From Deltaproteobacteria bacterium (GTDB lineage: Bacteria > Myxococcota_A > Polyangia > Haliangiales > J016), in the NCBI GenBank assembly GCA_003696105.1, contig RFGE01000289.1:1-56539 (forward strand): a DNA stretch of 56,539 bases, written 5' to 3'. The translations under genes were made by a program, and so were the position numbers. This document shows, one piece after another, positions 19,189-33,958 of the stretch; position 1 is the first letter of the stretch; each line of letters opens with the position of its first letter. The notes under the pieces were generated by a model. The model was given only the letters and a program-made list of their open reading frames with translations. It did no database searches and was not told the origin of the DNA.

Positions 19189-19659
19189 ATGCGCCTCTCG
19201 ACCAAGACCCGCTACGGCGTCCGCGCGATCTTCGACATCGCATTTCACCATCACGGGGCGCGCAATGCGGGCGCCGCCCAGGCCAAGGACATCGCCCGCC
19301 GGGAACGCATTCCGCTGCGCTACCTCGAGCAGATCTTTCAGGATCTGCGGCGCGCGGGCCTCGTCGACTCCAAGCGGGGGCCGCGCGGCGGCTACACCCT
19401 CAAGCGCGACCCGGCCGAGATCACCCTCGGAGACGTCGTGCGCGCCCTGCAGGGACCGATCGAGGAAATGTTCGTGATCGAACGCGACCCGGACGACGCC
19501 GCGCGGGCCTCCCACCCCGTCACCGCGCAGGTGTGGAAGGACCTCGCCGACCACGTCATCGCGTGGTTCGACGGCGTGACGATCGCCGACCTGGTCAAGC
19601 GCGGCGAGGCGTTGGGCCTGTCGCGCGCCGGCAGCGAGCAGCCGATGTACTTCATCTGA
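19189..19659 (+). CDS. Rrf2-family transcriptional regulator
   Basis: A 156-residue winged-helix regulator. The N-terminal MRLSTKTRYGVRAIFDIAF and the wing region GPRGGYTLKRD are typical of Rrf2 proteins. The three conserved cysteines that bind Fe-S clusters in IscR and NsrR are absent; there is no Cys in the protein. This places it with the CymR-like branch, which senses cysteine status through protein partners such as CysK. cysK is the next gene, eight bases away, supporting a role as the cysteine-responsive repressor of the following operon. The relation to CymR is inference. Confidence 0.9.
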   Translation: MRLSTKTRYGVRAIFDIAFHHHGARNAGAAQAKDIARRERIPLRYLEQIFQDLRRAGLVDSKRGPRGGYTLKRDPAEITLGDVVRALQGPIEEMFVIERDPDDAARASHPVTAQVWKDLADHVIAWFDGVTIADLVKRGEALGLSRAGSEQPMYFI

Positions 19660-19667
19660 TCCCGGCC

Positions 19668-20602
<935 letters not shown>

Positions 20603-20606
<4 letters not shown>

Positions 20607-21301
20607 CCCACTTCGTCCTCATCGGGGCCGGCGGTCTCGGCGGACCGATCGCCTACGCCCTCGCTGCTGCCGGCGACTGCACCCTGACGATCGTCGACGA
20701 CGACGTCGTCGACCTGTCGAACCTGCAGCGCCAGATCCAGTTCGCGACCGCCGACGTCGGCGCGCCCAAGGTCGACGCCCTGGCCCGCGAACTCGCGCGG
20801 CGCGGCGTCGCGGCCGGCCGGGTACGCCCGGTCCGAGCCCGATTCGACGCCAGCACGGCGGCCGAGCTGCTCGCCCGCGCCGACGTGGTGGTCGACGGAT
20901 CCGACAACTTCGCCACCAAGTTCGCGGTCAACGACGCGTGTGCGGCGGCCGGCCTGCCGTTCGCGATCGGCGGCGTGCTGCGCTACACCGGCCAGGTGCT
21001 CGCAGCCGCGCCGCCCGAGTCCGGGTGCTACCGCTGCGTGTTCGAAGCGCCCCCGCCGGACGCCGACGCCGACAGTTGCGCCGACGCCGGCGTGCTCGGC
21101 GCGGCGGTCGCCGTCGTCGCGGGGGCGTGCGCGCGCACCGCCCTGGCGCTGGCCGCCGGCGATCGCTCCGATGCGGGCAGCCTACTCGTGTTCGACGACC
21201 TGTCCCGCGGCGCGCGCGCACGCCGCGTGTCGTTCCGCAGGCGGCCCGGCTGCCCCGCCTGCACACCCGCCGGCCGTTCGGCCGCGCCGGAGGCTCCATG
21301 A
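20603..21301 (+). CDS. E1-like sulfur-carrier adenylyltransferase (MoeB/ThiF family), N-terminally short
   Basis: A 232-residue enzyme expected to adenylate the C-terminus of a ubiquitin-like sulfur carrier. Seen: nucleotide loop GAGGLGG (residues 8-14), VDDDVVDLSNLQRQ, DGSDNFATK, catalytic Cys159 in SCADAGVLG, and zinc pairs C142-x2-C145 and C217-x2-C220. It begins directly at the nucleotide-binding strand. It lacks the usual 20-30 residue N-terminal helix with the arginines that reach into the neighbouring active site of the dimer. That segment exists in the degenerate E1-like protein at 23068-23547. The carrier at 22539 is the likely substrate. Confidence 0.92.
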
Positions 21302-22536
21302 CGACTGCGCTGATCCGAGGACTGAAATGCCGCGAGTGCGGCGCGCCGTACGACCCGCGCCCGGTTCACGTGTGCGAGCTGTGCTTCGGCCCGCTCGAGG
21401 TCGACTACGACTACGACGCGATCGCCGCGGCGATCTCGCGCGACGCGATCGCCGCGCGGCCGCCGACGATGTGGCGCTACGCCGAGTTGCTGCCCTGCGA
21501 CGTGCCAGACCGCGCGCCGCCGGTCGGCTTCACACCGCTGGTGCGCGCGCGCCGGCTCGCCGAGCACCTGGGCGTGCGCGAGCTGTGGATCAAAAACGAC
21601 GCCGTCTGCTTTCCGACCCTGTCGTTCAAGGACCGCGTCGTCGCCATCGCGATCGCCAAGGCGCTCGACTTCGGCTTCGAACGGTTCGCCTGCGCGTCGA
21701 CCGGGAATCTCGCCAACGCCGTCGCGGCCGCCGCCGCCGCGGCCGGCGTTCCCGCGTACGTGTTCGTGCCGCACGACCTCGAGCCGCACAAGGTCCTGGG
21801 CACCCTGGTGTACGGCGCCACGGTCGTCGGAATTCGCGGAACCTACGACGAGGTCAACCGGCTGTGCGCGGAGATCGGCGACCGCTATCCGTTCGGGTTC
21901 GCCAACATCAACCTGCGGCCGTTTTACGCCGAAGGCTCCAAGACCCTCGCGTTCGAGGCGGCCGAACAGCTCGGCTGGCGCACGCCGGACCACGTCGTAT
22001 CGCCGATGGCCGGCGGATCGCTCATCACCAAGATTCGCAAGGCCTGGACCGAGATGCGCCGAGTCGGCCTGCTCGACGAGGACGTGCACACCCGCATCCA
22101 CGGCGCCCAGGCGGCGGGGTGCGCACCGATCGTCGAGGCCGTCCACGCCGGCCGCGATCTGATCAAGCCGGTCAAGCAGCCCGCCACGATCGCCCGGTCG
22201 CTGGCGATTGGAAACCCGGCCGACGGCTACTACGCCGTCCAGACGATTCGCGCCACCGGCGGGTGGGCCGCCGCGCCAACTGACGACCAGATCCTCGCCG
22301 CGATCCGGCTGTTGGCCGAGACCGAGGGAATCTTCACCGAGACCGCGGGCGGCGTGACGCTCGCGGCGACCCGACAGCTCATCGACGAGGGCCGAATCGG
22401 CCGCGACGAATCGGTCCTCGTGTGCATCACCGGGCAGGGCCTCAAGACGATGGACCCTCTGGTCGAGACCCTCCCGAAACCGCCAGTCATCGCGCCGTCC
22501 CTCGCGGAGTTCGACGCAATCACCAAGGAGCGATAG
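21298..22536 (+). CDS. thrC: Threonine synthase-like PLP enzyme with N-terminal zinc ribbon
   Basis: A 412-residue fold type II PLP enzyme. The N-terminal ribbon C11-x2-C14 and C26-x2-C29 is followed by the catalytic core with TLSFKDR (PLP lysine Lys111), ASTGNLANA and MAGGSLITK. By similarity it would convert O-phosphohomoserine to threonine. Its place inside a sulfur-carrier operon, coupled to the E1-like gene (ATGA) and two bases before the carrier gene, raises the possibility of a beta- or gamma-replacement with carrier-bound sulfur, for example homocysteine formation. The sequence alone does not decide this; a housekeeping threonine synthase role remains possible. Confidence 0.85.
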   Translation: MTTALIRGLKCRECGAPYDPRPVHVCELCFGPLEVDYDYDAIAAAISRDAIAARPPTMWRYAELLPCDVPDRAPPVGFTPLVRARRLAEHLGVRELWIKNDAVCFPTLSFKDRVVAIAIAKALDFGFERFACASTGNLANAVAAAAAAAGVPAYVFVPHDLEPHKVLGTLVYGATVVGIRGTYDEVNRLCAEIGDRYPFGFANINLRPFYAEGSKTLAFEAAEQLGWRTPDHVVSPMAGGSLITKIRKAWTEMRRVGLLDEDVHTRIHGAQAAGCAPIVEAVHAGRDLIKPVKQPATIARSLAIGNPADGYYAVQTIRATGGWAAAPTDDQILAAIRLLAETEGIFTETAGGVTLAATRQLIDEGRIGRDESVLVCITGQGLKTMDPLVETLPKPPVIAPSLAEFDAITKER

Positions 22537-22538
22537 CC

Positions 22539-22814
22539 ATGCCGACCGTACGCATCCCTACCCCGCTTCGCAAGCTCACCGGCGGTGCCGACAAGGTGCA
22601 GGTCGCCGGCTCGAACATAGGCGAGGTGATCGCCGCTCTCGAGACGAGCTACCCGGGCATCAAGGCGCGCATCTGCGACGACGACGGCAACGTGCGCCGG
22701 TTCGTCAACATCTTCGCCAACGACGAGGACATCCGGTTCCTCCAGAACCTCGACACGCCCGTGTCGGACGGCGACGAGATCTCGATCGTCCCGGCGATCG
22801 CGGGCGGCCGCTGA
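22539..22814 (+). CDS. cysO: Ubiquitin-like sulfur carrier protein (CysO/MoaD family), ending Gly-Gly-Arg
   Basis: A 91-residue beta-grasp protein. The motifs VRIPTPLRKLTGG, FVNIFANDEDIRFL and DGDEISIVPAIAGG closely follow mycobacterial CysO, which carries a C-terminal thiocarboxylate used by CysM to make cysteine. The difference is the last residue: the reading frame ends GGC GGC CGC TGA, giving Gly-Gly-Arg instead of a free Gly-Gly. A terminal extra residue must be removed before adenylation, and a JAMM peptidase is encoded 1.7 kb downstream. ATG 22539 lies two bases after the ThrC-like gene. Confidence 0.93.
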   Translation: MPTVRIPTPLRKLTGGADKVQVAGSNIGEVIAALETSYPGIKARICDDDGNVRRFVNIFANDEDIRFLQNLDTPVSDGDEISIVPAIAGGR

Positions 22815-22820
22815 CGGGCC

Positions 22821-23066
22821 GTGGCGATCACCAAGCGCGTCTACCTCACGTATCCGGCCCACCTGGTACGCGAGCCGTTGGTGTGCCGCATGTACGACGA
22901 GTTGCGCGTCGAGTTCAACGTGCGCACGGCATCGGTGACCGACGAGATCGGCATCATCGGGCTCGAGCTGTCCGGTGACCCCGACCGCATCGACGCCGCG
23001 ATCGCGTTCTTTCGCGAGCGCGGCGTCCGGGTCGAGCCGATCGCGCTGGACGTGATCGCGGGATGA
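22821..23066 (+). CDS. NIL domain protein
   Basis: An 81-residue protein consisting only of a NIL domain, the small ferredoxin-like fold also found at the C-terminus of methionine transporter ATPases (MetN). Seen: KRVYLTYPAHLVREPLVCRMYDEL, then VRTASVTDEIGIIGLELSG. Free-standing NIL domains occur beside sulfur-amino-acid genes and are thought to bind methionine or other ligands or to act as scaffolds. GTG 22821 follows the carrier stop by six bases; the stop is one base from the next gene. Its role in this pathway is unknown. Confidence 0.88.
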   Translation: MAITKRVYLTYPAHLVREPLVCRMYDELRVEFNVRTASVTDEIGIIGLELSGDPDRIDAAIAFFRERGVRVEPIALDVIAG

Positions 23067-23067
23067 C

Positions 23068-23547
23068 GTGGAGCTGACCGCCGACCAGATGCGCCGCTAC
23101 GCGCGCCACATCCTGTTGCCCGACGTCGGCGGCGTCGGCCAGCGGCGGCTGCTGTCCGCGCGGGTCGCGGTCGACGTCACCCCGCCGGCCGCCGCCGCGC
23201 ACGTGGCGCTCGCATACCTCGCGGCGGCGGGCGTGGGGCGCATCGCGCTGGCCGGCGACACCGCCGGGCCGGTACGCGCCGCCGAAGTGGCCACCGGCAT
23301 CCTGCTCGGCGCCGGCGACGTGGGCGCGCCGCGCGGCGCGGCGATCGCGCGCCGGCTCCGCGCGCTCAACCCGGACGTCGCCGTCGCGCTCGGCGCGGAG
23401 GCCGACGACGTGCCGCTCGCAATCGACAGCGCGCCGACCGCTGGCCGCGCGGCGGTCGCCGACGCGCTCGTCGCCGGCGGCGCGGCGGCCGCCACGTTCA
23501 TCGCCCGCGTCGCGCGAGGCGACGCGCCCGCGGAGGCGACCGCGTGA
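23068..23547 (+). CDS. Degenerate E1-like protein with intact N-terminal arginine segment
   Basis: A 159-residue protein. Its first 30 residues (TADQMRRYARHILLPDVGG, then GQRRLLSARVAV) are typical of the N-terminus of MoeB/ThiF E1 enzymes, including the arginines (Arg9, Arg10, Arg13) that act across the dimer. Where the nucleotide loop GxGGLG should follow it reads DVTPPAAAAHVAL. There is no catalytic Cys and no CxxC zinc pair. It is therefore a pseudoenzyme, shorter than the usual 240-270 residues. It overlaps cysM by four bases. It may complete the short active E1 at 20603 as a heterodimer (inference). Confidence 0.8.
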   Translation: MELTADQMRRYARHILLPDVGGVGQRRLLSARVAVDVTPPAAAAHVALAYLAAAGVGRIALAGDTAGPVRAAEVATGILLGAGDVGAPRGAAIARRLRALNPDVAVALGAEADDVPLAIDSAPTAGRAAVADALVAGGAAAATFIARVARGDAPAEATA

Positions 23548-24485
23548 ACCTGCACCGCAACGCGCGGGTCGACTCGGTCCTCGACCTGATCGGCGACACG
23601 CCGCTCGTGCGGCTGCGCTCGGTCGAGCGCCGCGCAGGCGGCGACGTCGAGATCTGGGCCAAGTGCGAGTTCGAAAATCCCGGCGGCTCGGTCAAGGACC
23701 GCGCGGCACGCCAGATGATTCTCGACGCGATCGCCGACGGCCGACTCAAACCGGGCCAGCGCATCATCGACTCCACCAGCGGCAATACGGGCGTCGCCTA
23801 TTCGATGATCGGCGCCGCCCTCGGGTATCCCGTCACCCTGGTGATGCCCGCGAACGTATCGGCCGCGCGCAAGGAGATCACGCGCGCCTACGGCACCGAG
23901 TTGGTGTTCTCGTCGGAACTCGAGGGCAGCGACGGCGCGATTCGCCTCGCGCGCAAGATCGTCGAGGAACATCCCGACGACTATTTCTACCCGGATCAGT
24001 ACTCGAACCCGTCCAATCCCCTCGCCCACTACCTCGGCACCGGGCGGGAGATCCTCGAGGCGCTTGGCGACCGCATCACGCACTTTTGCACCGGCATCGG
24101 CACGACGGGAACCATCATGGGGACGGCGCGGCGCCTCAAGGAACACCGCGCCGACATCCGCGTGATCGCGATCGAGCCGGACGACGCGCTGCACGGCCTC
24201 GAGGGCATGAAGCACTTGCCCAGCTCGATCGTGCCGGCCATCTGGCAGCCGGACGGCCTGATCGACGAGATGTTGCCGATGCCGACCGACGAGGCGTGGG
24301 ATGCCGCCGACGCGCTGGTGCGCGACGAGGGGCTGTTCGTCGGCCATTCGGCCGGGGCCAACGTCGCCGGCGCGCTCCGCGTGGCGCGCGCCGCGGGGCC
24401 CGGCGCGGTCGTCGTCACGATCTTGCCCGACCGGGGCGACCGCTACTTCGTGCCGCTCAAGTGGGAAAAATCCGACGTGTGGTGA
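23544..24485 (+). CDS. cysM: Cysteine synthase, CysM-like (probable sulfur-carrier dependent)
   Basis: A 313-residue PLP enzyme: GGSVKDR (PLP Lys51), STSGNTG, GIGTTGTIMG phosphate loop, and HGLEGMKHLPSSIVP in place of the CysK-type GPHKIQGIG pocket. It differs clearly from the upstream CysK and sits between the E1-like protein and the JAMM peptidase, as CysM does in the mycobacterial Mec-CysO-CysM system, where it adds the carrier thiocarboxylate to O-phosphoserine-derived aminoacrylate. Use of O-phosphoserine cannot be confirmed by eye. GTG 23544 overlaps the preceding stop. Confidence 0.9.
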   Translation: MNLHRNARVDSVLDLIGDTPLVRLRSVERRAGGDVEIWAKCEFENPGGSVKDRAARQMILDAIADGRLKPGQRIIDSTSGNTGVAYSMIGAALGYPVTLVMPANVSAARKEITRAYGTELVFSSELEGSDGAIRLARKIVEEHPDDYFYPDQYSNPSNPLAHYLGTGREILEALGDRITHFCTGIGTTGTIMGTARRLKEHRADIRVIAIEPDDALHGLEGMKHLPSSIVPAIWQPDGLIDEMLPMPTDEAWDAADALVRDEGLFVGHSAGANVAGALRVARAAGPGAVVVTILPDRGDRYFVPLKWEKSDVW

Positions 24486-24513
24486 CCCGTGACCCGATCC
24501 CGTGGGACCAGCC

Positions 24514-24999
24514 ATGCTGACTGAGCCGCGCCCGATCGAAATCCCGCGCGCGCTGCTCGAGCGCGCCTACCGCGAAGCCCGCGCTGCGTTCCCGGACGAG
24601 TGCTGCGGCTGGCTCAGCGGCAGCTCGCCCGACCGCGTCGACGATCTGCGCGCGTGCGCGAACCGCCAGTGCGACGGGGACCACCCGACCGCCGCGGATC
24701 GGACCGCCGAGACCGCCTACGTGATCGCCGGCGACGACCTGCTCGCGTTCAACCGGGCGTTCGACGGTGACGCGCCGCCGCGCGTGCTGTACCACTCGCA
24801 TCCGAACGGGCGCGCCTACCTGTCGGCCACCGACCGGGATGTGGCGACCAGTCCGTGGGGCGACGGGCCGACCTACCCGGTTCAGCAGCTCGTCATCGGC
24901 ATCGACGCCGAGCGCGTCACCGAGGCGGCGCTGTTCGCGTGGTCCGACGCGGCCGGCGACTTCCTCGAAGTCGCGCGGTTCGAGGGAGCGGCGCTGTGA
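24514..24999 (+). CDS. mec: JAMM/Mov34 metallopeptidase (Mec type)
   Basis: A 161-residue zinc peptidase. The complete JAMM signature is visible: Glu29 in FPDEC, then H94-S-H96 followed after seven residues by S104 and D107 (HSHPNGRAYLSATD). In mycobacteria Mec releases cysteine from the CysO-cysteine adduct. Related peptidases trim residues after the di-glycine of sulfur carriers in thioquinolobactin and Wolinella methionine pathways. Both roles are needed here, because the carrier ends Gly-Gly-Arg. ATG 24514 is chosen over the in-frame GTG 24502. It overlaps the DsrE-like gene (GTGA). Confidence 0.93.
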   Translation: MLTEPRPIEIPRALLERAYREARAAFPDECCGWLSGSSPDRVDDLRACANRQCDGDHPTAADRTAETAYVIAGDDLLAFNRAFDGDAPPRVLYHSHPNGRAYLSATDRDVATSPWGDGPTYPVQQLVIGIDAERVTEAALFAWSDAAGDFLEVARFEGAAL

Positions 25000-25307
25000 C
25001 CCGGCGGCTCGCGCTCGTCGTGAGCGTCGCGGGCGACGTACCGGCCGCGCTCGCCCTCGCGCGCGCGGCTCGGCGCCAGGGCGTCGAGGTGGCGGCGTTC
25101 TTCATGGCCGACGCGGTGGGTGCGCTGCCGGCGGTCCGCGCCGAACTCGCCGCCCTCGCCGACGACCACGACTGCGAACTGGTCGCGTGCGCCACCAGCG
25201 CACACGAGCGCGGCCTGCGCGAGGCGGACGTCGGCGTGCTGCTCGGCAGTCAGGACGACCACGCGGCGATCGTCCACCGCGCCAACCGCGTCGTGGCATT
25301 CACGTGA
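24996..25307 (+). CDS. DsrE/TusD-like sulfur relay protein
   Basis: A 103-residue DsrE-fold protein. It has the usual Rossmann-like start (LALVVSVAGD), AAFFMADAV in the position of the family's FF.DG strand, and a cysteine at residue 65 (VACATSAHERGL) matching the persulfide-carrying Cys of DsrE and TusD. In characterised systems DsrEFH or TusBCD passes sulfur between TusA-type proteins and acceptors. Start GTG overlaps the mec stop, and its own stop overlaps the next DsrF-like gene, so three small relay genes are read as one coupled set. Confidence 0.8.
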   Translation: MTRRLALVVSVAGDVPAALALARAARRQGVEVAAFFMADAVGALPAVRAELAALADDHDCELVACATSAHERGLREADVGVLLGSQDDHAAIVHRANRVVAFT

Positions 25308-25567
25308 CCGGGCCGCGCAAACAGCTGTGCGTCGTCGTGGCCGCGCGGCGGCCGGATCGCGTGCGCGAGGCGCTGCGCGCCGCGGTCGGCCTGTCGCTGC
25401 GCGGCGACGCGGTCCGCGTGGTGCTGGCGACGGCCGTCGACGACGCCGACCCGGCGGTACGGCGGGCGCTCGGCACGCTGCGCGCGCTGGGCCACACGGT
25501 GACTCGCACCAGCGACGACCCCGCGGCGGCGGCGCGCGACGCCGATGCGGTCGAGGTGTGGACGTGA
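25304..25567 (+). CDS. DsrF/TusC-like sulfur relay protein
   Basis: An 87-residue small protein with an alternating strand-helix pattern of the DsrE/F fold: QLCVVVAARRPDRVREALRA, VRVVLATAVDD, and a C-terminal ADAVEVWT strand. Similarity alone is weak; the position between a DsrE-like and a DsrH-like gene, with GTGA overlaps on both sides, makes the DsrF (TusC) assignment likely. DsrF/TusC subunits have no essential Cys; the one Cys here lies in the first strand. Confidence 0.6.
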   Translation: MTGPRKQLCVVVAARRPDRVREALRAAVGLSLRGDAVRVVLATAVDDADPAVRRALGTLRALGHTVTRTSDDPAAAARDADAVEVWT

Positions 25568-25716
25568 CCCGCCGCGTTCTGCATATCATTCGGTCGGAGC
25601 ACCGTCGTGCCCTATGCCGCCCGGCGCCGGGCGATCGCATCGTCGCGCTGGCCGACACCGATCCCGACGAGCTCGTCACTCTCATCTTTTCGTTCGATGT
25701 CGTCATCGTCTGGTAA
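25564..25716 (+). CDS. Very short DsrH/TusB-like protein
   Basis: A 50-residue product that starts RRVLHIIRSEHRRAL, like the LH-x-RSP start of TusB, and ends DELVTLIFSFDVVIVW, like the conserved C-terminal strand and terminal Trp of DsrH/TusB. The usual length is about 95 residues, so the middle has been lost while both ends are kept. The single Cys (LCRPAPG) is near the middle, whereas family members carry theirs in the central strand. Coupled by GTGA to the DsrF-like gene; the tusA gene begins within its last 20 bases. Confidence 0.6.
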   Translation: MTRRVLHIIRSEHRRALCRPAPGDRIVALADTDPDELVTLIFSFDVVIVW

Positions 25717-25960
25717 CCGCTGCGACCCCGTCCTCGACCTGCGCGGCGAGGTGTGCCCGTACACCTTCGTGCGCGCGCGCCTGCGCCTCGAGCAGATGGC
25801 GCCCGGCGAGCGCCTCGTCGTCGTCGTGGACCACGAGCCGGCCACCCGCAACGTGCCGCGCAGTGCGCGCGAATGGGGGCAAGAGGTCGGCGACGTGCGC
25901 GAAGTCGAACCCGGCGTATGGCACATCCCCGTCACCAAACGCACCGATGAAAGGACCTGA
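25697..25960 (+). CDS. tusA: TusA-like sulfur carrier
   Basis: An 87-residue protein of the TusA/SirA family: LDLRGEVCPYTFVRARL with the persulfide-bearing Cys20 of the Cys-Pro motif, then MAPGERLVVVVDHEPATRNVP, the family's second signature. TusA hands sulfur from a cysteine desulfurase to TusBCD or other acceptors. Here it lies between DsrEFH-like proteins and ATP sulfurylase, as in sulfur-oxidiser clusters and in this cysteine island. ATG 25697 is chosen because the family begins just before the LD-RG motif. Six bases separate it from sat. Confidence 0.92.
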   Translation: MSSSSGNRCDPVLDLRGEVCPYTFVRARLRLEQMAPGERLVVVVDHEPATRNVPRSAREWGQEVGDVREVEPGVWHIPVTKRTDERT

Positions 25961-25966
25961 CCCTCG

Positions 25967-27142
25967 ATGACCGAACCGAGCGACGCCATCCTCCCGCACG
26001 GCGGCGGCCCCCTCGTCGACCGCCTCGCCGACGAAGCGACCCGCGACGAGCTGCGCGCACGCCACGCGCGCGGCGATCTGCCGACTCTGCAGCTCAACCC
26101 CCGCGAGGTCTCCGACCTCGAGCTGCTCGCCAACGGTGCGTTCACGCCGCTCGTCGGCTTCATGGGCAAGGACGACTACGACAGCGTCGTAGACCGCGGG
26201 CGGCTCGCCAACGGCGTGCCGTGGACCATTCCGATCACGCTGTCGGCGCCGCGGGCGCGCGCCGAGGCGCTGCCGCGCCACGAGCCGGTCGGCCTCGTCG
26301 GCCCGGACGGCGCGCTGCTCGGGTCGATCGAGATCGCGGAGGTGTTCGCATACGACAAGGCGCGCGAGGCCCGCCAGGTGTTCGGCACCGAGGACACGGC
26401 CCACCCGGCCGTCGCCTACCTGATGGGCGAGATGGGCGATCGCCTGCTCGGCGGGCCGATCGCGCTGCTCGACCGCCCGGCCCCGGCGTTCCCGCGGTAC
26501 GGGCTGGACCCGCGCGCGACGCGCGCGCTGTTCCGCGAGCGCGGCTGGCGGCGCATCGTCGCGTTCCAGACCCGCAACCCGATCCACCGCGCGCACGAGT
26601 ACATCATCAAATGTGCGCTCGAAATCTGCGATGGCTTGCTCATCCATCCGATCGTCGGCTTCACCAAGGGGGACGACATCCCGGCGGACGTCCGCGTGCG
26701 CTGCTACGAGGCGATCATCGAGCACTACTTCCCCGCCGATCGCGTCGCGCTCGCGACCCTGCCGGCGGCGATGCGCTACGCGGGCCCGAAAGAGGCGATC
26801 TTTCACGCCATCATGCGGCGCAACTATGGCTGCACCCACTTTATCGTCGGCCGCGACCACGCGGGCGTCGGCAACTACTACGGCACCTACGACGCCCAGG
26901 CGATCTTCGACGAGTACGACCCGGCCGAAATCGGCATCACGCCGCTGCGGTTCGAACACGCTTTCTATTGCACGCGCTGCAGCGGCATGGGCACCGCGAA
27001 GACCTGTCCGCACGACGCCGACGCCCACGTGTTCCTGTCCGGCACCAAGGTCCGCGCCATGCTGGCCAAGGGCGAGCGCCCGCCGCCGGAGTTCTCGCGG
27101 CCGGAGGTCGCCGACATCCTGATCGCCGCCTACGGCTCGTAG
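25967..27142 (+). CDS. sat: Sulfate adenylyltransferase (homo-oligomeric ATP sulfurylase)
   Basis: A 391-residue enzyme that interconverts sulfate plus ATP with adenosine 5'-phosphosulfate. Seen: QTRNPIHRAHE (nucleotide and sulfate binding), GRDHAGVG, and a C-terminal Zn-type cluster FYCTRCSGMGTAKTCPH. Length matches prokaryotic Sat without an APS-kinase domain. It ends the tightly spaced island. No APS reductase or sulfite reductase is present in the window, so reduction to sulfide must be encoded elsewhere, or the enzyme works in another direction. Confidence 0.96.
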   Translation: MTEPSDAILPHGGGPLVDRLADEATRDELRARHARGDLPTLQLNPREVSDLELLANGAFTPLVGFMGKDDYDSVVDRGRLANGVPWTIPITLSAPRARAEALPRHEPVGLVGPDGALLGSIEIAEVFAYDKAREARQVFGTEDTAHPAVAYLMGEMGDRLLGGPIALLDRPAPAFPRYGLDPRATRALFRERGWRRIVAFQTRNPIHRAHEYIIKCALEICDGLLIHPIVGFTKGDDIPADVRVRCYEAIIEHYFPADRVALATLPAAMRYAGPKEAIFHAIMRRNYGCTHFIVGRDHAGVGNYYGTYDAQAIFDEYDPAEIGITPLRFEHAFYCTRCSGMGTAKTCPHDADAHVFLSGTKVRAMLAKGERPPPEFSRPEVADILIAAYGS

Positions 27143-27204
27143 CCGCCGATCCGAGGCGCCGGCCGCAGCTTCGACGGCGCAGCGCGGACCCGCGGCTCCT
27201 GTGC

Positions 27205-27210
27205 TAGCGT
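27205..27210 (+). promoter_or_regulatory. -10 box of larE
   Basis: TAGCGT with an extended TG (TGC before the box). It ends six bases before GTG 27217, so the message would begin at the start codon. No good -35 is seen at 17 bases. Confidence 0.4.
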
Positions 27211-27216
27211 GGCGGA

Positions 27217-28050
27217 GTGCACGCGAAGCTCGACCGACTGCGCACGCTCATCGCCGACTACCGCAGCGCGCTGATCTGCTTTTCCGGCGGCGTCGACTCG
27301 ACGTTCCTGCTCAAGGTCGCCGTGGACGTGCTCGGCGACCGGTGCCACGCGCTCACCTGCGTGTCCGAAACGATGGCGGCGGCCGAGGTGGCCGACGCGC
27401 GCGCCCTCGGCGCCGAACTCGGCCTCGGTGACCGCCACCACATCGTCCACTCGCACGAACTCGACCGCCCCGGGTTTCGCGCCAACCCGGTCGACCGCTG
27501 CGCGATGTGCAAGACGGAGCTGATGGAACACGCCGAACCGCTCGCCGCGCAGCACGGTCTCGCCGCGATCGCGCTCGGCACGAACGTGGACGACCTCGGC
27601 GACCACCGTCCGGGCATCGCGGCGGCGTCGAGCCGCGGCGCGGTCGCGCCGATGGTGGCCGCAGGTCTCACCAAGGCCGACATCCGCGCACTGTCGCGCG
27701 AACTCGGGCTTCGCACGTGGAACAAACCGCAGCTCGCGTGCCTGTCGTCCCGCTTCCCGTACGGCACCGAGATCACGCCGGAGCGGCTGCGCCAAGTGGA
27801 CGCGTTCGAACAGGGGCTGCGCGCGCTCGGTTTTTCTCAACTTCGGGTGCGGTTTCACGATACGATCGGCAAGGTGGAGCTGCTGCGCGACGAGATGGCC
27901 CGCGCGATCGATCTGCGAGACGACATCGTGGCCCTCGGCCGCCGGTGCGGCTTCACCTACGTCGCGCTGGATCTGGCCGGCTTCCGCTCGGGAGCCCTCA
28001 ACGAGGGCGCGCTCGTGACGCTGCGCGCCGGAGCTCCAAAGGCGAGCTGA
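27217..28050 (+). CDS. larE: ATP-dependent sacrificial sulfur transferase (LarE family)
   Basis: A 277-residue PP-loop enzyme. Seen: SGGVDST (23-29), the paired cysteines DRCAMCK (95 and 98), and Cys175 in KPQLACLSSRFPYG, at nearly the same position as the sacrificial Cys176 of Lactobacillus LarE. In lactate racemase maturation LarE gives its cysteine sulfur to a pyridinium cofactor. LarB and LarC are not next to it. The neighbouring Sat, TusA and CysO genes suggest a sulfur-donor role of a related kind. Leaderless GTG 27217; its stop overlaps the following DUF882 gene (TGATG). Confidence 0.88.
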   Translation: MHAKLDRLRTLIADYRSALICFSGGVDSTFLLKVAVDVLGDRCHALTCVSETMAAAEVADARALGAELGLGDRHHIVHSHELDRPGFRANPVDRCAMCKTELMEHAEPLAAQHGLAAIALGTNVDDLGDHRPGIAAASSRGAVAPMVAAGLTKADIRALSRELGLRTWNKPQLACLSSRFPYGTEITPERLRQVDAFEQGLRALGFSQLRVRFHDTIGKVELLRDEMARAIDLRDDIVALGRRCGFTYVALDLAGFRSGALNEGALVTLRAGAPKAS

Positions 28051-28670
28051 TGCGCACGGCGGCGGCGGTGCTCGTCGGGCTCGTAGCCACTGCCGGCTCC
28101 GCGCGCGCCGATCGCACCCCCGCGGCCCCCAAGGATCGCTACCTGGCCGCCAAACGGGCGGCCGTCCCGATGTCGCGCGAACGGCGCGCGCGCTGGCACG
28201 CCGAGTTGGACGCGCGCCGCGACCGGGCGCCCGCGCCGCCCATCACGGTCTACAACCGCTGGACGCGGGAGTTCCTCGCGCTGCCGGCCGATGGCGACGC
28301 CGACGTCGCACAGGACGACCTCAACTGGTTTTTCCGCTGCCGGTTCACCAACGAGACGACCGAAATCGACCCGCGGCTGCTGTCGCTGGTCGTCGACGCG
28401 GCTCGGCACTTCCACGCCAGGCGCGTCGACGTCGTGTCCGCGTACCGGTCGCCCAAATACAACCTCATGTTGCAGAAGAAAGGCCGCTACGTGAGCCGGC
28501 GGAGCCAGCACATGGCGGGCCGCGCGCTCGACTTCTACATCCCCGGCGTGAGCGTGCGCGCGCTGCACCGCTACGTTCGCTCGCGCAAGCTCGGCGGCGT
28601 CGGCTTCTACACGCACAGCGGCTACATACACGCGGACACCGGCCGCGTGCGCTACTGGACGGCCCGGTAG
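28050..28670 (+). CDS. DUF882/YcbK-type peptidase M15 family protein
   Basis: A 206-residue secreted protein: a signal peptide ending ARA, then a domain with VVSAYRSPKYNLMLQK, SQHMAGRALDFYIPGV and GYIHADTG. These provide the His, Asp and His zinc ligands of the M15 fold in the DUF882 subgroup. Relatives act on peptidoglycan peptides or are murein-binding. It overlaps the larE stop by one base, so it is co-translated with larE, and senA follows after 20 bases. A functional link with sulfur metabolism is not evident; the pairing may be accidental. Confidence 0.88.
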   Translation: MRTAAAVLVGLVATAGSARADRTPAAPKDRYLAAKRAAVPMSRERRARWHAELDARRDRAPAPPITVYNRWTREFLALPADGDADVAQDDLNWFFRCRFTNETTEIDPRLLSLVVDAARHFHARRVDVVSAYRSPKYNLMLQKKGRYVSRRSQHMAGRALDFYIPGVSVRALHRYVRSRKLGGVGFYTHSGYIHADTGRVRYWTAR

Positions 28671-28690: not shown

Positions 28691-29905
28691 ATGGACGTCG
28701 TCGGCCTGCTGCGCGAAGCGCGTGACCGCACCCTCGAGTTGGTGGAAGACCTGTCCGACGACCAGCTCATCGGGCCGCGCATGCCGATCGTCAACCCGCT
28801 GCTGTGGGAGATCGGCCACGTCGCGTGGTTCCACGAGCACTGGTCGCTGCGATGGTTGCGAGGCGAACGGCCCGCGCGCGACGACGGTGACGCGCTGTGG
28901 GACTCGATTCGCGTCGCGCACGACACGCGGTGGGATCTGCCGCTGCCGTCGCGGCGCGACACGCTCGCGTACATGCGCGACGTGCTCGACCGCTGCTGCG
29001 AGCGTGCCGCCGCCGGCGAGCTGACCGCGCGGCAGCGGGCGATCCACCTGTACTGCGTGTTCCACGAGGACATGCACGCCGAGGCGTTCACGTGGACGCG
29101 ACAGACCCTCGGCTATCCGCCGCCGCGCATGGGCGTCCCCCCGCGGCCGCCCCAGGGCGGTGGCCCGCTGCCCGGCGACGTCGACATCCCGGGCGGGACC
29201 TATCTCATCGGTGCATCGCTCGACGATCCGTTCTGCTTCGACAACGAAAAGTGGCAGCACGCGGTCGACCTTGCGCCGTTTGCGATCGCGCGCGCGGCGA
29301 CGACGCAAGCGGAGTTCGCCGCGTTCGTCGACGACGGCGGCTACCGCCGTCGCGAGCTGTGGTCCGAGGACGGCTGGCGGTGGCGCTGCGCGGCCGCCGC
29401 CGACCACCCGGTCTACTGGCGGCGGGACGCCGACCGGTGGCTCCGCCGCCACTTCGACCGGTGGGTGGAAGTCGAGCCCCACCGTCCGGTGGTCCACGTG
29501 TCGTGGTGGGAGGCGGAGGCGTACTGCCGGTGGGCCGGACGCCGCCTACCGAGCGAGGCCGAGTGGGAAGTGGCTGCCGACGGCGCGCGCACGGGCAACC
29601 TGGACTGGACCGCCGGCGGCTGTGTCGACGTCGGCGCAGACCCCGCCAGCGACAGCCGCTGGGGCTGCCGGCAGATGCTCGGCAACGTATGGGAGTGGAC
29701 CGCCGACGCGTTCGCGCCCTATCCCGGGTTCGAGCCCGACATGTACCGCGAGTACTCCGCGCCGTGGTTTCACACGCACCGCGTCGCTCGCGGCGGATGC
29801 TGGGCCACGCGCGCGCGCATCGCGCGGCGCACATATCGCAACTACGCCACGCCCGACCGCCGGGACCTGTGGTACGGCTTCCGCACATGCGCGTCGACCT
29901 CGTAG
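28691..29905 (+). CDS. senA: Selenoneine synthase SenA (EgtB-like non-heme iron enzyme)
   Basis: A 404-residue protein with an N-terminal DinB-like domain (about 1-150) and a C-terminal formylglycine-generating-enzyme-type domain (about 155-400; GGTYLIGAS, RRLPSEAEWEVAA, MLGNVWEWTADAF). Iron ligands by analogy with EgtB are His43 and the pair His125-x3-His129 (VFHEDMHAE). EgtB makes the C-S bond of ergothioneine; the SenA branch joins a selenosugar to hercynine. Assignment to SenA rests on the segment PIVNPLLWEIGHVAWF and, above all, on the overlapping senB gene. A hercynine-forming EgtD is not in the window. Confidence 0.87.
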   Translation: MDVVGLLREARDRTLELVEDLSDDQLIGPRMPIVNPLLWEIGHVAWFHEHWSLRWLRGERPARDDGDALWDSIRVAHDTRWDLPLPSRRDTLAYMRDVLDRCCERAAAGELTARQRAIHLYCVFHEDMHAEAFTWTRQTLGYPPPRMGVPPRPPQGGGPLPGDVDIPGGTYLIGASLDDPFCFDNEKWQHAVDLAPFAIARAATTQAEFAAFVDDGGYRRRELWSEDGWRWRCAAAADHPVYWRRDADRWLRRHFDRWVEVEPHRPVVHVSWWEAEAYCRWAGRRLPSEAEWEVAADGARTGNLDWTAGGCVDVGADPASDSRWGCRQMLGNVWEWTADAFAPYPGFEPDMYREYSAPWFHTHRVARGGCWATRARIARRTYRNYATPDRRDLWYGFRTCASTS

Positions 29906-30837
29906 CGCCGCCGCCAGCGGATCTTCCGTCGGGCAACAACGCGACCGCGCGGCGGTGGGCGGCGATCCTGCGCGAACTCGGCCACCGGCCGCGCCTGCGC
30001 TGGGACGATGCGCCGGGCGACGCCGACCTGCTGATCGCCCTGCACGCGGTCAAGACGCGCCGCGCGCTGCTCGCGTTCCGCCGCGCGCACCCGGACCGGC
30101 CGGCCGTCGTCGCGCTCACCGGCACGGACATCTACGGCCGGCGAAATCTCGCGCCGGCGCTCGACGCCGCAACCTTCATCGTGGCCCTTCAGCCGCGCGC
30201 GCTGACCGCGCTGTCGCGCGCGCACCGCGTCAAGGCGCGGGTCATCTTTCAGTCTGCCGAGCCGCCTCGCGCGCTGCCGGCGAAGCCATCGCGCGAGTTT
30301 CGCGTCGCGGTCGTCGGCCACCTGCGCGCGGTCAAGGACCCCCTGCGCACCGCGCTGGCCGTGCGCGAACTTCCGGAGGACTCGCGCATCGTCGTGCGCC
30401 ACGCCGGCCGGGCGCTGTCGGAGTCGTTCGCGCGCCGGGCGCGTGCCGAAATGGACCGCAACCCGCGCTACCGGTGGCTCGGAGAACTCACGCCGGGCCG
30501 CGTGCGCCGTCTGATCGCGTCGAGCCACCTGGTCGCGATCACGTCGCTGGCCGAGGGCAGCTGCAACGTGTTGTCCGAAGCGCTGGCGGCGCACACTCCG
30601 GTGGTCGCAACGCGCATCCCGGGACTGATGGGCACGCTCGGCGCGCACTACCCGGGCTACTTTCGCCCGCGCGACACCCGCAAGCTCACCCGCTTGCTGC
30701 GCCGCGCGGAAGGCGACGCCGCGTTCTACCGACAGCTGGCCGCCGCGTGCCGGCGCGCGACGCCGCTGGTCGATCCCCGCCGCGAACGCGCCGCCTGGCG
30801 GGCGCTTCTCGCCGAACTCGCCGCTCGGAGGCCGTAG
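29887..30837 (+). CDS. senB: Selenosugar synthase SenB (TIGR04348-type glycosyltransferase)
   Basis: A 316-residue GT-B type glycosyltransferase. Family features: MRVDLVAPPPADLPSGNNAT at the start, ADLLIALHAVKTRRAL, VALTGTDIYG, and the C-terminal donor site TSLAEGSCNVLSEALA. SenB couples selenophosphate with a UDP-sugar to give a selenosugar used by SenA. It overlaps senA by 19 bases. The selenophosphate synthase SenC (SelD), the third gene of known sen clusters, is absent nearby. The last codons and the TAG stop lie inside the left inverted repeat of a MITE-like element. Confidence 0.87.
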   Translation: MRVDLVAPPPADLPSGNNATARRWAAILRELGHRPRLRWDDAPGDADLLIALHAVKTRRALLAFRRAHPDRPAVVALTGTDIYGRRNLAPALDAATFIVALQPRALTALSRAHRVKARVIFQSAEPPRALPAKPSREFRVAVVGHLRAVKDPLRTALAVRELPEDSRIVVRHAGRALSESFARRARAEMDRNPRYRWLGELTPGRVRRLIASSHLVAITSLAEGSCNVLSEALAAHTPVVATRIPGLMGTLGAHYPGYFRPRDTRKLTRLLRRAEGDAAFYRQLAAACRRATPLVDPRRERAAWRALLAELAARRP

Positions 30838-31002
30838 CGGATAGGCGCTGGCTGCGGTCGCGATCTGCGGGCGATCGTCGGCGTACGTCCTCGCGCCCTT
30901 CGGCAACGTAGGATTATACGCGCCCTCGCGCGCTGCGGGCGCGCGCCGAACCTCGCCTCGCATCTCGCAACCTCGCTGGCGCGCCCATACGCAACGGCCT
31001 CC
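30827..31002 (-). mobile_element. MITE-like element, copy 1 (176 bp)
   Basis: A non-coding 176-base element with terminal inverted repeats beginning GGAGGCCGT. It is the reverse complement of the copy at 51513-51688; by eye about 18 mismatches and no gaps (about 90% identity), with identical length. The right end is followed by TA (31003-31004); the left is preceded by TC, probably a mutated TA duplication. This fits IS630/Tc1-type insertion at TA. It carries the stop codon of senB and its edge forms the TAG stop of the cytochrome gene. No transposase is encoded. Confidence 0.8.
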
Positions 31003-32252
31003 TACCGGCACGTGAAGTCGACCGCGTCGACGTGGCAGCGCAGGCACATGCGCCCGGCGCGCGCGGCGAGCGCCCGGCACCGGCGACTCGTCGCCCATCC
31101 GGCCGGATGCGGATTCACGCGATAGGGATTGCCCGGCTCGGCCGAGTGGCACGTGGTGCAAAACGGTTCGCGGTGGCAACTCGCGCACTGGCGAATGTTG
31201 CGCTGGGCCTGGACGGCGTGGTGGTTCGGGCCGCGCGCACCGAACGTCGCCCACCCGTCCGGGTGGAACCGCCGCGAGCCGTCGCCGGTGAGAAACGCGC
31301 CGGCGAACTCGCTCCCCTTGCGGCCACCGCCCTCGACCGGGTCGTAGGACCAGCCGACGCCGGTGCGGCCGTGGCAGCCGACGCAGAAGGTCTGCAGCCG
31401 GTGACACGCCGAGCAGTCGGGGTTGTTGCGCCGCGCATCGATCGCGTGGATCGACACGTAGTCGTTGCCGTGAAAGTCCATCGGCTTCGCCGTGCCCTGA
31501 TGGCAGTCGATGCAAAACGCCTTGTGGTGGCAGTTGTCACAATACGCCGCGTCCTGCTTGGCCACCGCCGCGTGGCGCGTGCGAAACGACAGGTCGTGCG
31601 CGTCGCCGCGCAACACGCCGGACGGCTGAAGCAGCCCTTCGGCGAACGCGGTCTGGATGCGGCCGTCGCCTTCGGCGAGGTGACAGGTCGTACATGCATC
31701 GGTCGCCGTTCGTCCATCGTGGCACTGCAGGCACAGTCGCATGCGCGGCAGCTGGTCGCGCGTCGCGAGGTCGACGCCGTCGGCCAGCAGGTCGCCGTGA
31801 CACGTCTGGCAGCTGATTTTCCGGCCGACGTGCGCCCTGTGGTTGAACTTGAGATTGGGCGCCGGCACGACGACGCGCGCGACCGCCCCGCCCGCGGCGA
31901 ACCCAGGATGGCATGCCGCGCACGCCGCCGGCGGCTTGCCGGCCGCGACCGGCTTGGTCGGCTGGTCGCGGTCGATCGCGTGGCACATCGCGCACACGTC
32001 CTCGCCGGGCATCAGGTTGTCGAGCGACGACGTCGACTCCGCGGCGTCCTCGTGGCAGAAGTCGCAGTCGACGCTGCCGAGGCGCAGGTGGCGCGCGTGC
32101 GAGAAACGAAGCGGCAGCGACTGCGGCGGGAACACGACCTCGGACACCGGTTGCCGCGCAAACTCCGCGAGCCGCGGCGCGCCGGCGCGCGCCGCCGACC
32201 AGACCGCCACGGCAACGCCGACGGCGACGCCGAGCGAGGCTGCCCGCTGCAT
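31002..32252 (-). CDS. Multiheme c-type cytochrome (13 CXXCH motifs)
   Basis: A 416-residue periplasmic protein with a signal peptide ending ARAG and thirteen CXXCH heme-binding motifs, from CDFCH and CAMCH near residue 65 to CLRCH near the C-terminus, with additional histidines for bis-His ligation. Such proteins carry electrons across the periplasm. The ATG overlaps the stop of the upstream barrel gene (ATGA). This suggests a porin-cytochrome conduit across the outer membrane, as in Mtr/Pcc systems, though the heme count differs from the ten of MtrA. The TAG stop is formed at the junction with the MITE-like element. Confidence 0.93.
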   Translation of the reverse strand: MQRAASLGVAVGVAVAVWSAARAGAPRLAEFARQPVSEVVFPPQSLPLRFSHARHLRLGSVDCDFCHEDAAESTSSLDNLMPGEDVCAMCHAIDRDQPTKPVAAGKPPAACAACHPGFAAGGAVARVVVPAPNLKFNHRAHVGRKISCQTCHGDLLADGVDLATRDQLPRMRLCLQCHDGRTATDACTTCHLAEGDGRIQTAFAEGLLQPSGVLRGDAHDLSFRTRHAAVAKQDAAYCDNCHHKAFCIDCHQGTAKPMDFHGNDYVSIHAIDARRNNPDCSACHRLQTFCVGCHGRTGVGWSYDPVEGGGRKGSEFAGAFLTGDGSRRFHPDGWATFGARGPNHHAVQAQRNIRQCASCHREPFCTTCHSAEPGNPYRVNPHPAGWATSRRCRALAARAGRMCLRCHVDAVDFTCR

Positions 32253-33958
32253 CACGGCACCTCCGGGTGGAACGCGAGGTCGAGCACGGCGAGCACGCGC
32301 AATTGGCGCCGGTCGAGCCGATTGTAGTTGTCCTCCACCGTGGCGTGCGCGGCGATGCCGGGCGCAATGCGATAGGTCGCGCCGAGTTGGCCGCCGAACG
32401 ACGTGGCGCGGCGGCGCTCGATCAGTTCGTCGTCGAAGCGTACGACGCTCACGCGCGACGCGACGTCCCACGCGCCGGTCAGCCGCCACCGCGCAGACGC
32501 GAACCCGCCGGCGCGCCGGCCGCCGTAGCCGTCTTCCCAAAACAGGTCCAGGCGCGCGTATGACCACGGGCTCGCGCGGTACCGGCCGCCGGCGTGCGCG
32601 CCCAGCGCAGTGCCGCCACCGTCGCCGGCCGGCGCGGCGTCCTCGGTTCCGTACGCGCGCAACCACCCGCGCACGTACCCCGACAGCGCGCTCGCGTCGG
32701 GCGCCAGTTCGTACGTGAGGCGGGCATCGTGGTACGGCCGCGTCGAGAACACGTTGAAGATCGAGTCGCCGTCGAACGTGGGGTACGAGTAGAAGTACTC
32801 GGGCGACAGCCGGTGCGCGCCCCACTGCAGCTGCACGCCGGCGAGTGCCTCGTCGATCAGCCCGTGCAGCAGGCTGTAGCGAGCCGCCGCGAACGTTGCC
32901 ACCTGCCCGGCGCCCCGCGCCAGCCGTCGCACGTAGCGGGCCGACGTGGACACGCGCTCCTCGTTGACGCCCCAGCCGGGCGCCTGGCCGCGCTCGTTCG
33001 GGTACAGCCCGCGATCGGGCGCGCCCATCGTCACCGCGCCGCCGATGAGCCCCGGCGTGCGCGATACCGACCGCCGATAGGACGCGCGCAGCACCACCGG
33101 GAGGTCGTCGGTCTCGATCGCGGCGCCGAACGTCGGCATCCATTCGTCCCGCTGCGGGCAGCGATCGAAGTCCGCCTCGAACGGATTGCCGCCGCCCGGC
33201 ACCGGGCGGTCGATGGGCCGCCACGATCCGGTGCCGGGCGCGACGCCTTCGACGTACTCGGGACATTCGCCGCCGGCCGTGCCGTCCGGCTCGAGGGTCG
33301 CGGCGGCGACCGGCGATGCGTCGCGCACGCGCATGCCGCCGAACGCCTCGATCGCGGCCCGCCAGGGCGTGTGGACGCGCACCGTCGCGCCGTCGAAGCT
33401 CCACCAGTCGAGCGTGTCGACCGCGAGCTGGCGGCCGACCGCGACATCCACGACGCCGGCGAGACCGCGCACACCGGCGTAGGCGTACAACACGTCGACC
33501 GCGAGGCTCGACGACTCCAGTTCCGGAATCAGATCGACGGCGTCGTATCGGTTGGCGTCGACGACGAGCGACCCGCCGGTGAAGCTGCCGAAGTCGTGGT
33601 CGATGCGCAGCCACGCCGTCACGTACACGTCGGGACCGGGGTCGAGCGCGGTGTCGTAGCGCAGTCGACGCGGCGGCCGGCCAATGTTCCAGATCGACAG
33701 CGACAGCGACTGCGTGAACCGCCGCCGTGCGAGTTCCGAGTCGCCCGACACGGGCCGTAGCCACCGAAGTGAGTAGCCCTGCCCGACGGTCAGCGCACGG
33801 ACCTCGAAGTCGTAGGCCCACGCCGGCGCGGCGACGGCGAGCGCAACCGCCGCCGCAGCCGCCGCCCACGCGCGCGGCAGCCCGCCCCGCGCCCGCTGCG
33901 CCGGCGCGGCGACCGCCGCCGTCCGTCGCCATTTCGGTTCGCCCGTGCGGCGCGCCAT
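32252..33958 (-). CDS. Outer-membrane beta-barrel protein, partner of the multiheme cytochrome
   Basis: A 568-residue protein: signal peptide ending AWA, then alternating polar and aromatic strands typical of a barrel (for example SLSLSIWNI, DVYVTAWLRID, ARLTYELAPD). It ends with a terminal strand VLAVLDLAFHPEVP. Two cysteines lie in one large loop (ECPEYVEG and DRCPQRDEW). Translationally coupled to the 13-heme cytochrome gene, so probably a sheath for it in the outer membrane, with a role like MtrB or PioB but shorter than MtrB; sequence similarity to those was not evident by eye. A promoter lies just upstream of ATG 33958. Confidence 0.82.
   Translation of the reverse strand: MARRTGEPKWRRTAAVAAPAQRARGGLPRAWAAAAAAVALAVAAPAWAYDFEVRALTVGQGYSLRWLRPVSGDSELARRRFTQSLSLSIWNIGRPPRRLRYDTALDPGPDVYVTAWLRIDHDFGSFTGGSLVVDANRYDAVDLIPELESSSLAVDVLYAYAGVRGLAGVVDVAVGRQLAVDTLDWWSFDGATVRVHTPWRAAIEAFGGMRVRDASPVAAATLEPDGTAGGECPEYVEGVAPGTGSWRPIDRPVPGGGNPFEADFDRCPQRDEWMPTFGAAIETDDLPVVLRASYRRSVSRTPGLIGGAVTMGAPDRGLYPNERGQAPGWGVNEERVSTSARYVRRLARGAGQVATFAAARYSLLHGLIDEALAGVQLQWGAHRLSPEYFYSYPTFDGDSIFNVFSTRPYHDARLTYELAPDASALSGYVRGWLRAYGTEDAAPAGDGGGTALGAHAGGRYRASPWSYARLDLFWEDGYGGRRAGGFASARWRLTGAWDVASRVSVVRFDDELIERRRATSFGGQLGATYRIAPGIAAHATVEDNYNRLDRRQLRVLAVLDLAFHPEVP

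Follow-up and report, generated by a model that had tools for sequence, protein, structure and literature searches.

Selenoneine, a selenium-containing antioxidant, is probably produced by the organism studied here through the joint action of SelD, SenB, EgtD and SenA, the genes for which are distributed over three sites of its genome. The senA and senB genes are located side by side in the window, which is the whole stretch of DNA that was analysed (56,539 nucleotides, contig C289). The genome consisted of 5.34 Mb in 381 contigs and was 98.2% complete.

Both genes of the pair are encoded on the forward strand. The senA gene (28,691–29,905) codes for a selenoneine synthase of 404 amino acids with DinB_2 and FGE-sulfatase Pfam domains, and senB (29,887–30,837) codes for a selenosugar synthase, a GT-B glycosyltransferase of 316 amino acids. 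A previous reading of the sequence alone, hereafter the sequence-only reading, had described an EgtB-like gene and a TIGR04348-type glycosyltransferase gene overlapping by 19 bases, and the two frames could be confirmed with an overlap at 29,887–29,905. Alignment with relatives revealed that the senB start corresponds to the conserved N-terminus of the family; the overlap is therefore genuine and not an artefact of start choice. Chance frames could be excluded by the family matches (SenA to NF041186, E = 1.5e-147; SenB to TIGR04348, E = 4.8e-95). SenA received 491.9 bits on NF041186 (curated cut-off 420) and 83.3 bits on the TIGR04373 signature (cut-off 71), while SenB received 318.2 bits on TIGR04348 (curated cut-off 300). 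The assignment of the pair as SenA and SenB thus held, with both proteins above the curated NCBIfam cut-offs and the placement of SenA in the phylogenetic trees in agreement. An Rfam search of the window revealed two tRNAs only.

Alignment of the window SenA indicated H43, H125 and H129 as putative iron ligands, together with the substrate-site motifs Y355-S-A-P-W-F and R383-N-Y. The window SenB matched the PDB SenB entries 8k5u and 8fbx with E-values of about 1e-46 to 1e-45. Its catalytic and donor-site residues were mapped by motif from the family alignment and PMC10891094, in which the reference residues of Variovorax paradoxus SenB are N20, T23, H58, R61, T83, T85, Q131, R155, K158, E231 and H235. 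Identity was observed at 9 of these 11 positions (N17, T20, H53, T78, T80, Q122, R147, K150 and E223 in the window protein). The two changes were R61 to K (K56) and H235 to N (N227), the latter lying where EGGAHV of V. paradoxus is replaced by EGSCNV; an asparagine at this position is usual among the aligned relatives of the window SenB. That the pair has decayed or fallen silent is scarcely credible: a promoter-like site could not be found near senAB, by a scan which, like the terminator scan, is uninformative in such G+C-rich DNA, whereas both frames are intact, full length and above their cut-offs, and the iron ligands, together with almost every catalytic residue of SenB, are conserved.

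The position of SenA among related enzymes was evaluated in two trees, a quick one comprising 70 proteins and a careful one comprising 47, from the latter of which the long-branched EgtB 4x8b was omitted. Both trees placed the window protein among the SenA proteins, apart from EgtB and OvoA, and a grouping with either of these, which the sequence-only reading had named as evidence against a SenA identity, did not occur. Although EgtB (PDB 4x8b and the EgtB-like proteins of the same phylum) shares the fold and the iron site, the sampled EgtB-like proteins were split from the window SenA at 100/100 in the careful tree, and the score of about 333 bits on the EgtB model TIGR03440 was below the cut-off of 360. 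An EgtB or OvoA identity was ruled out by the trees and cut-offs. The window SenA occurred within a set of 35 SenA rows (95/88), apart from OvsA, while OvsA 8ux5 and the OvsA-type protein of locus L124 formed a separate pair (100/100 in the careful tree). Among the closest relatives of the window SenA was the protein of locus L062, with 66% sequence identity.

It is very improbable that the enzyme is instead an OvsA-type selenoxide synthase that uses histidine as its substrate in a route to ovoselenol. The top PDB score of the window SenA was obtained with the OvsA entry 8ux5 (333 bits, compared to 225 bits for SenA 8ryz), and an AU test did not reject a clade of the window SenA with OvsA (p = 0.23); the substrate-site residues were therefore compared. 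At this site 8ux5 differs from the OvsA entry 8u41 by SenA-like residues (YS/RNF against MS/RQA) and MS and RQA are likewise present in the naturally occurring OvsA-type protein of L124, so that 8ux5 appears from its sequence to be an engineered variant. The window protein has the SenA state at 16 of the 20 columns separating SenA from OvsA, including YSAPWF, and keeps RN[Y/F], whereas the L124 protein and 8u41 carry MSTLQF and RQA. As a control, the OvsA-type protein of L124, which belongs to the same enzyme superfamily, failed both NF041186 (414.7 < 420) and TIGR04373 (51 < 71), the two SenA cut-offs passed by the window protein. The OvsA-type gene of L124 is followed by a TIGR04345 mercaptohistidine N-methyltransferase gene, while no methyltransferase was observed among the neighbours of the window senAB that were examined, and in close relatives senA is accompanied by egtD. 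Because of the residues of 8ux5, the diagnostic columns, the family cut-offs and the lack of an adjacent methyltransferase, the OvsA reading was set aside in favour of SenA. The L124 region itself (L124:384–7663, Cocleimonas) encodes a permease-like protein, a SenB homologue and SelD in addition to the OvsA-type protein and the separate TIGR04345 methyltransferase, and from its gene content looks like an ovoselenol locus.

The genome was also searched for the supply of both substrates. EgtD, the hercynine synthase, was present on contig C267 (339 bits, cut-off 290.9); a hercynine source, the absence of which had been proposed as an argument against the pathway, is thus encoded. SelD was encoded on contig C219 (368 bits) by a gene containing a single in-frame TGA; read as selenocysteine, this codon gives the motif SHGAGUACK, at the site where SelD proteins carry either cysteine or selenocysteine. 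A tRNA-Sec gene was also detected (72.9 bits, gathering threshold 47). No SECIS hairpin could be observed after the TGA of selD, as the following 55 nt folded no better than shuffled sequences (z = 0.61), and the selenocysteine reading is therefore based on conservation of the site, on the frame remaining open past the TGA and on the tRNA-Sec. The whole-genome SelD search produced matches only on C219 and, far below the cut-off, on C304. Contig C289 thus carries no selD or senC, as the sequence-only reading had noted for the surroundings of the pair, and the unlinked SelD which it had offered as a selenophosphate source does exist. A separate EgtB was not found in the whole genome, where the EgtB model matched only SenA itself below the cut-off (332.5–333 bits), and SenA is accordingly the sole EgtB-family hercynine enzyme found in this genome. 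The presence of EgtD and SelD gives the organism the capacity to make both hercynine and selenophosphate.

The proposed steps follow the reactions published for V. paradoxus (PMC10702425, PMC10891094). SelD, encoded on C219 by a frame that reads through the TGA at the selenocysteine position, would convert selenide to selenophosphate and would serve both selenocysteine synthesis and the selenoneine pathway. From selenophosphate and a UDP-sugar, which is probably UDP-GlcNAc, SenB would form a 1-seleno-sugar, while EgtD from C267 would convert histidine to hercynine. SenA, as a non-haem iron enzyme, would then couple the seleno-sugar oxidatively to C2 of the hercynine imidazole, and the selenoxide would eliminate the sugar and be reduced to selenoneine. 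We infer for this organism that SenB receives its selenophosphate from SelD and that selenoneine is the product of the window pair.

The sequence-only reading had treated the missing senC as telling, and related loci were compared in this respect. A collection of genome contigs was scanned with the SenB alignment, and the 80 loci best matching the window SenB were retained; a senA-like gene was present in 55 of them, one being the OvsA-type gene of L124. The flanks extended to about 8 kb at most, and the following selD-linkage fractions are valid for this sample. In 41 of the 55 senA-like/senB loci, selD was absent from the available flanks (14 had it); of the 43 loci flanked on each side by 2 kb or more, 10 had a linked selD. 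Within this sample, loci without senC are the majority; its absence is ordinary, and the weight placed on it could not be upheld. SelD above the cut-off was present in 55 of 58 SenA/SenB genomes compared to 74 of 113 genomes from the window's phylum that served as background (Fisher p about 1e-5, between sets that differ in phylum and contain related genomes). Since SelD is also common without SenA, this co-occurrence is supporting only. The three exceptions were G383, with a fragment at a contig edge, and G405 and G414, with no SelD over the cut-off; SelD was thus not observed in every SenAB genome, and the latter two may be incomplete. In G405, locus L104 and its genome contained senA, senB, EgtD and EgtB, representing either an incomplete MAG or a true exception. 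EgtD was present in 52 of the 58 genomes and in 44 of the 45 genomes with senA. Moreover, egtD was linked in 17 of the 55 loci, usually in the order senA–senB–egtD, which ties the pair to hercynine; this order also occurs among near relatives of the window SenA (L061, L062, L074 and L082). Because the genome has SelD and EgtD and most related pairs lack senC, the missing senC presents no puzzle.

Upstream of the pair, a run of sulfur genes occupies about 19.2 to 28.05 kb on the forward strand, beginning with an Rrf2-type regulator, CysK-like, ThiF/E1-like, ThrC-like, MoaD/SAMP-like and CysM-like genes and continuing with JAB, DsrE-like, TusA, Sat and LarE genes. The segment 22,422–24,999 (+) contains a MoaD/SAMP-like carrier (NF041918, 64.4 bits, cut-off 60), a NIL-like small protein, a ThiF-like fragment, a CysM-like PLP enzyme (PF00291; TIGR01138, 330.3 bits, below the cut-off of 394.2) and a JAB protease (PF14464); the NIL and ThiF-like labels and some others in the island were assigned by reading. 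It is followed on the same strand by a TusA-like sulfurtransferase gene (25,607–25,960; PF01206, E = 3.7e-19) with its true start probably near 25,715, by sat for sulfate adenylyltransferase (25,967–27,142; NF003166, 526.6 bits; TIGR00339, 419.5 bits), and by larE for an ATP-dependent sacrificial sulfur transferase (27,217–28,050; TIGR00268, 292 bits, cut-off 150). Judged by the predicted products, the MoaD/SAMP-like, E1-like, JAB and CysM-like genes with TusA, Sat and LarE (19,189–28,050) constitute a putative CysO-type cysteine assembly cluster. Between larE and senA lies a gene for a MepK-like DUF882 peptidase (28,050–28,670, +; PF05951, E = 1.9e-31; NF053624, 108 bits, below the cut-off of 185), which ends 20 bp before senA and probably shares its transcript; to our knowledge, such a peptidase has no role in the selenoneine pathway. 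No gap in the series sat, larE, mepK-like gene, senA and senB exceeds 75 bp, which makes one transcript of these five genes plausible, and senAB may be co-transcribed with the end of the sulfur island. On the other side of the pair, a multihaem cytochrome-like CxxCH protein adjoins an outer-membrane-protein-like frame on the reverse strand (31,002–33,958); the two are possibly an electron-transfer pair.

The sulfur-assimilation island which the sequence-only reading had placed beside senAB is real, as the family searches confirm, but the arrangement does not recur: no homologue of sat, tusA, larE or cysM was present beside senA or senB in 88 other related loci. The adjacency is therefore most likely a matter of local history, and a functional link between senAB and the island was set aside. 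This result also bears on whether the pair makes ergothioneine, a sulfur-based alternative of the kind raised by the sequence-only reading. SenB would then form a thio-sugar from the products of the neighbouring sulfur-activation genes and SenA would couple it to hercynine in place of EgtB, as could be suggested by the presence of EgtD, the lack of a detected EgtB and the plausible co-transcription behind sat, larE and the mepK-like gene. Ergothioneine as the product is nevertheless unlikely, given the lack of recurrence in the 88 loci and the enrichment of SelD in SenAB genomes above background. Furthermore, thiophosphate is disfavoured 10–20-fold by V. paradoxus SenB, and sulfide is not a substrate of SenC (PMC10702425). 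The missing EgtB is not special either, because about half of the 45 genomes with SenA yielded no EgtB-family match other than SenA. It is similarly doubtful that genomes of this type, having EgtD and SenA but lacking EgtB, use sulfur or selenium according to supply, so that one pathway with co-transcribed sulfur genes would yield both ergothioneine and selenoneine, SenA/SenB being the only outlet for hercynine.

Within the same phylum, SenA above the cut-off was detected in 9 of 379 genomes. Among the eight genomes other than that of the window, four had senA adjoining senB without selD, three had senA without senB nearby, and one (L040) had an oxidoreductase–SelD fusion directly before senB–senA (L040:5011–7389), a possible form of SenC. 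In two of the genomes with unlinked senA, G022 and G315, senB is divergent to a TGA-containing selD (L139 on G022:C15; L140 on G315:C32) with senA on another contig, which is a natural linkage of SenB to a selenocysteine-type SelD. Orphan senB genes were also observed: a whole-genome search at E ≤ 1e-60 gave no SenA-family match for 12 of 20 such genomes, mostly Planctomycetota (loci L065, L067, L072, L073, L079, L096, L100, L107, L114, L118, L119 and L121). SelD was present in all SelD-tested genomes of this group, and clustering of the loci without senA revealed no conserved replacement partner of SenB. The seleno-sugar may have another fate in these genomes, and gaps in the MAGs are possible. 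Annotated senA genes also occur on the Methylorubrum populi plasmids NZ_AP014810.1 and NC_010727.1.

The window senAB is a further SenA/SenB pair of the already known selenoneine type. It resembles the senABC cluster of V. paradoxus (Kayrouz et al. 2022, as presented in PMC10702425 and PMC10891094) in its adjacent SenA and SenB homologues, the nine SenB residues, the iron-ligand histidines and the YSAPWF and RN motifs, but differs in the lack of senC in the cluster with SelD unlinked, in the overlap of the two genes and in its position after a sulfur gene run. Loci of MAGs from Acidobacteriota, Bacillota, Armatimonadota and Myxococcota (L061, L062, L074, L082, L101 and L105) share the tandem pair without selD and encode the closest relatives of the window SenA; there, egtD directly follows senB, whereas the window genome carries egtD on a different contig, and these loci lack the sulfur island of the window. 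Linkage of senC serves poorly as a marker of selenoneine capacity, because most sampled senA–senB pairs, from many phyla, lack it while nearly all their genomes have SelD, and surveys demanding senABC would miss most candidate producers. Organisms that have EgtD and SenA without EgtB may possess no histidine-betaine antioxidant other than selenoneine.
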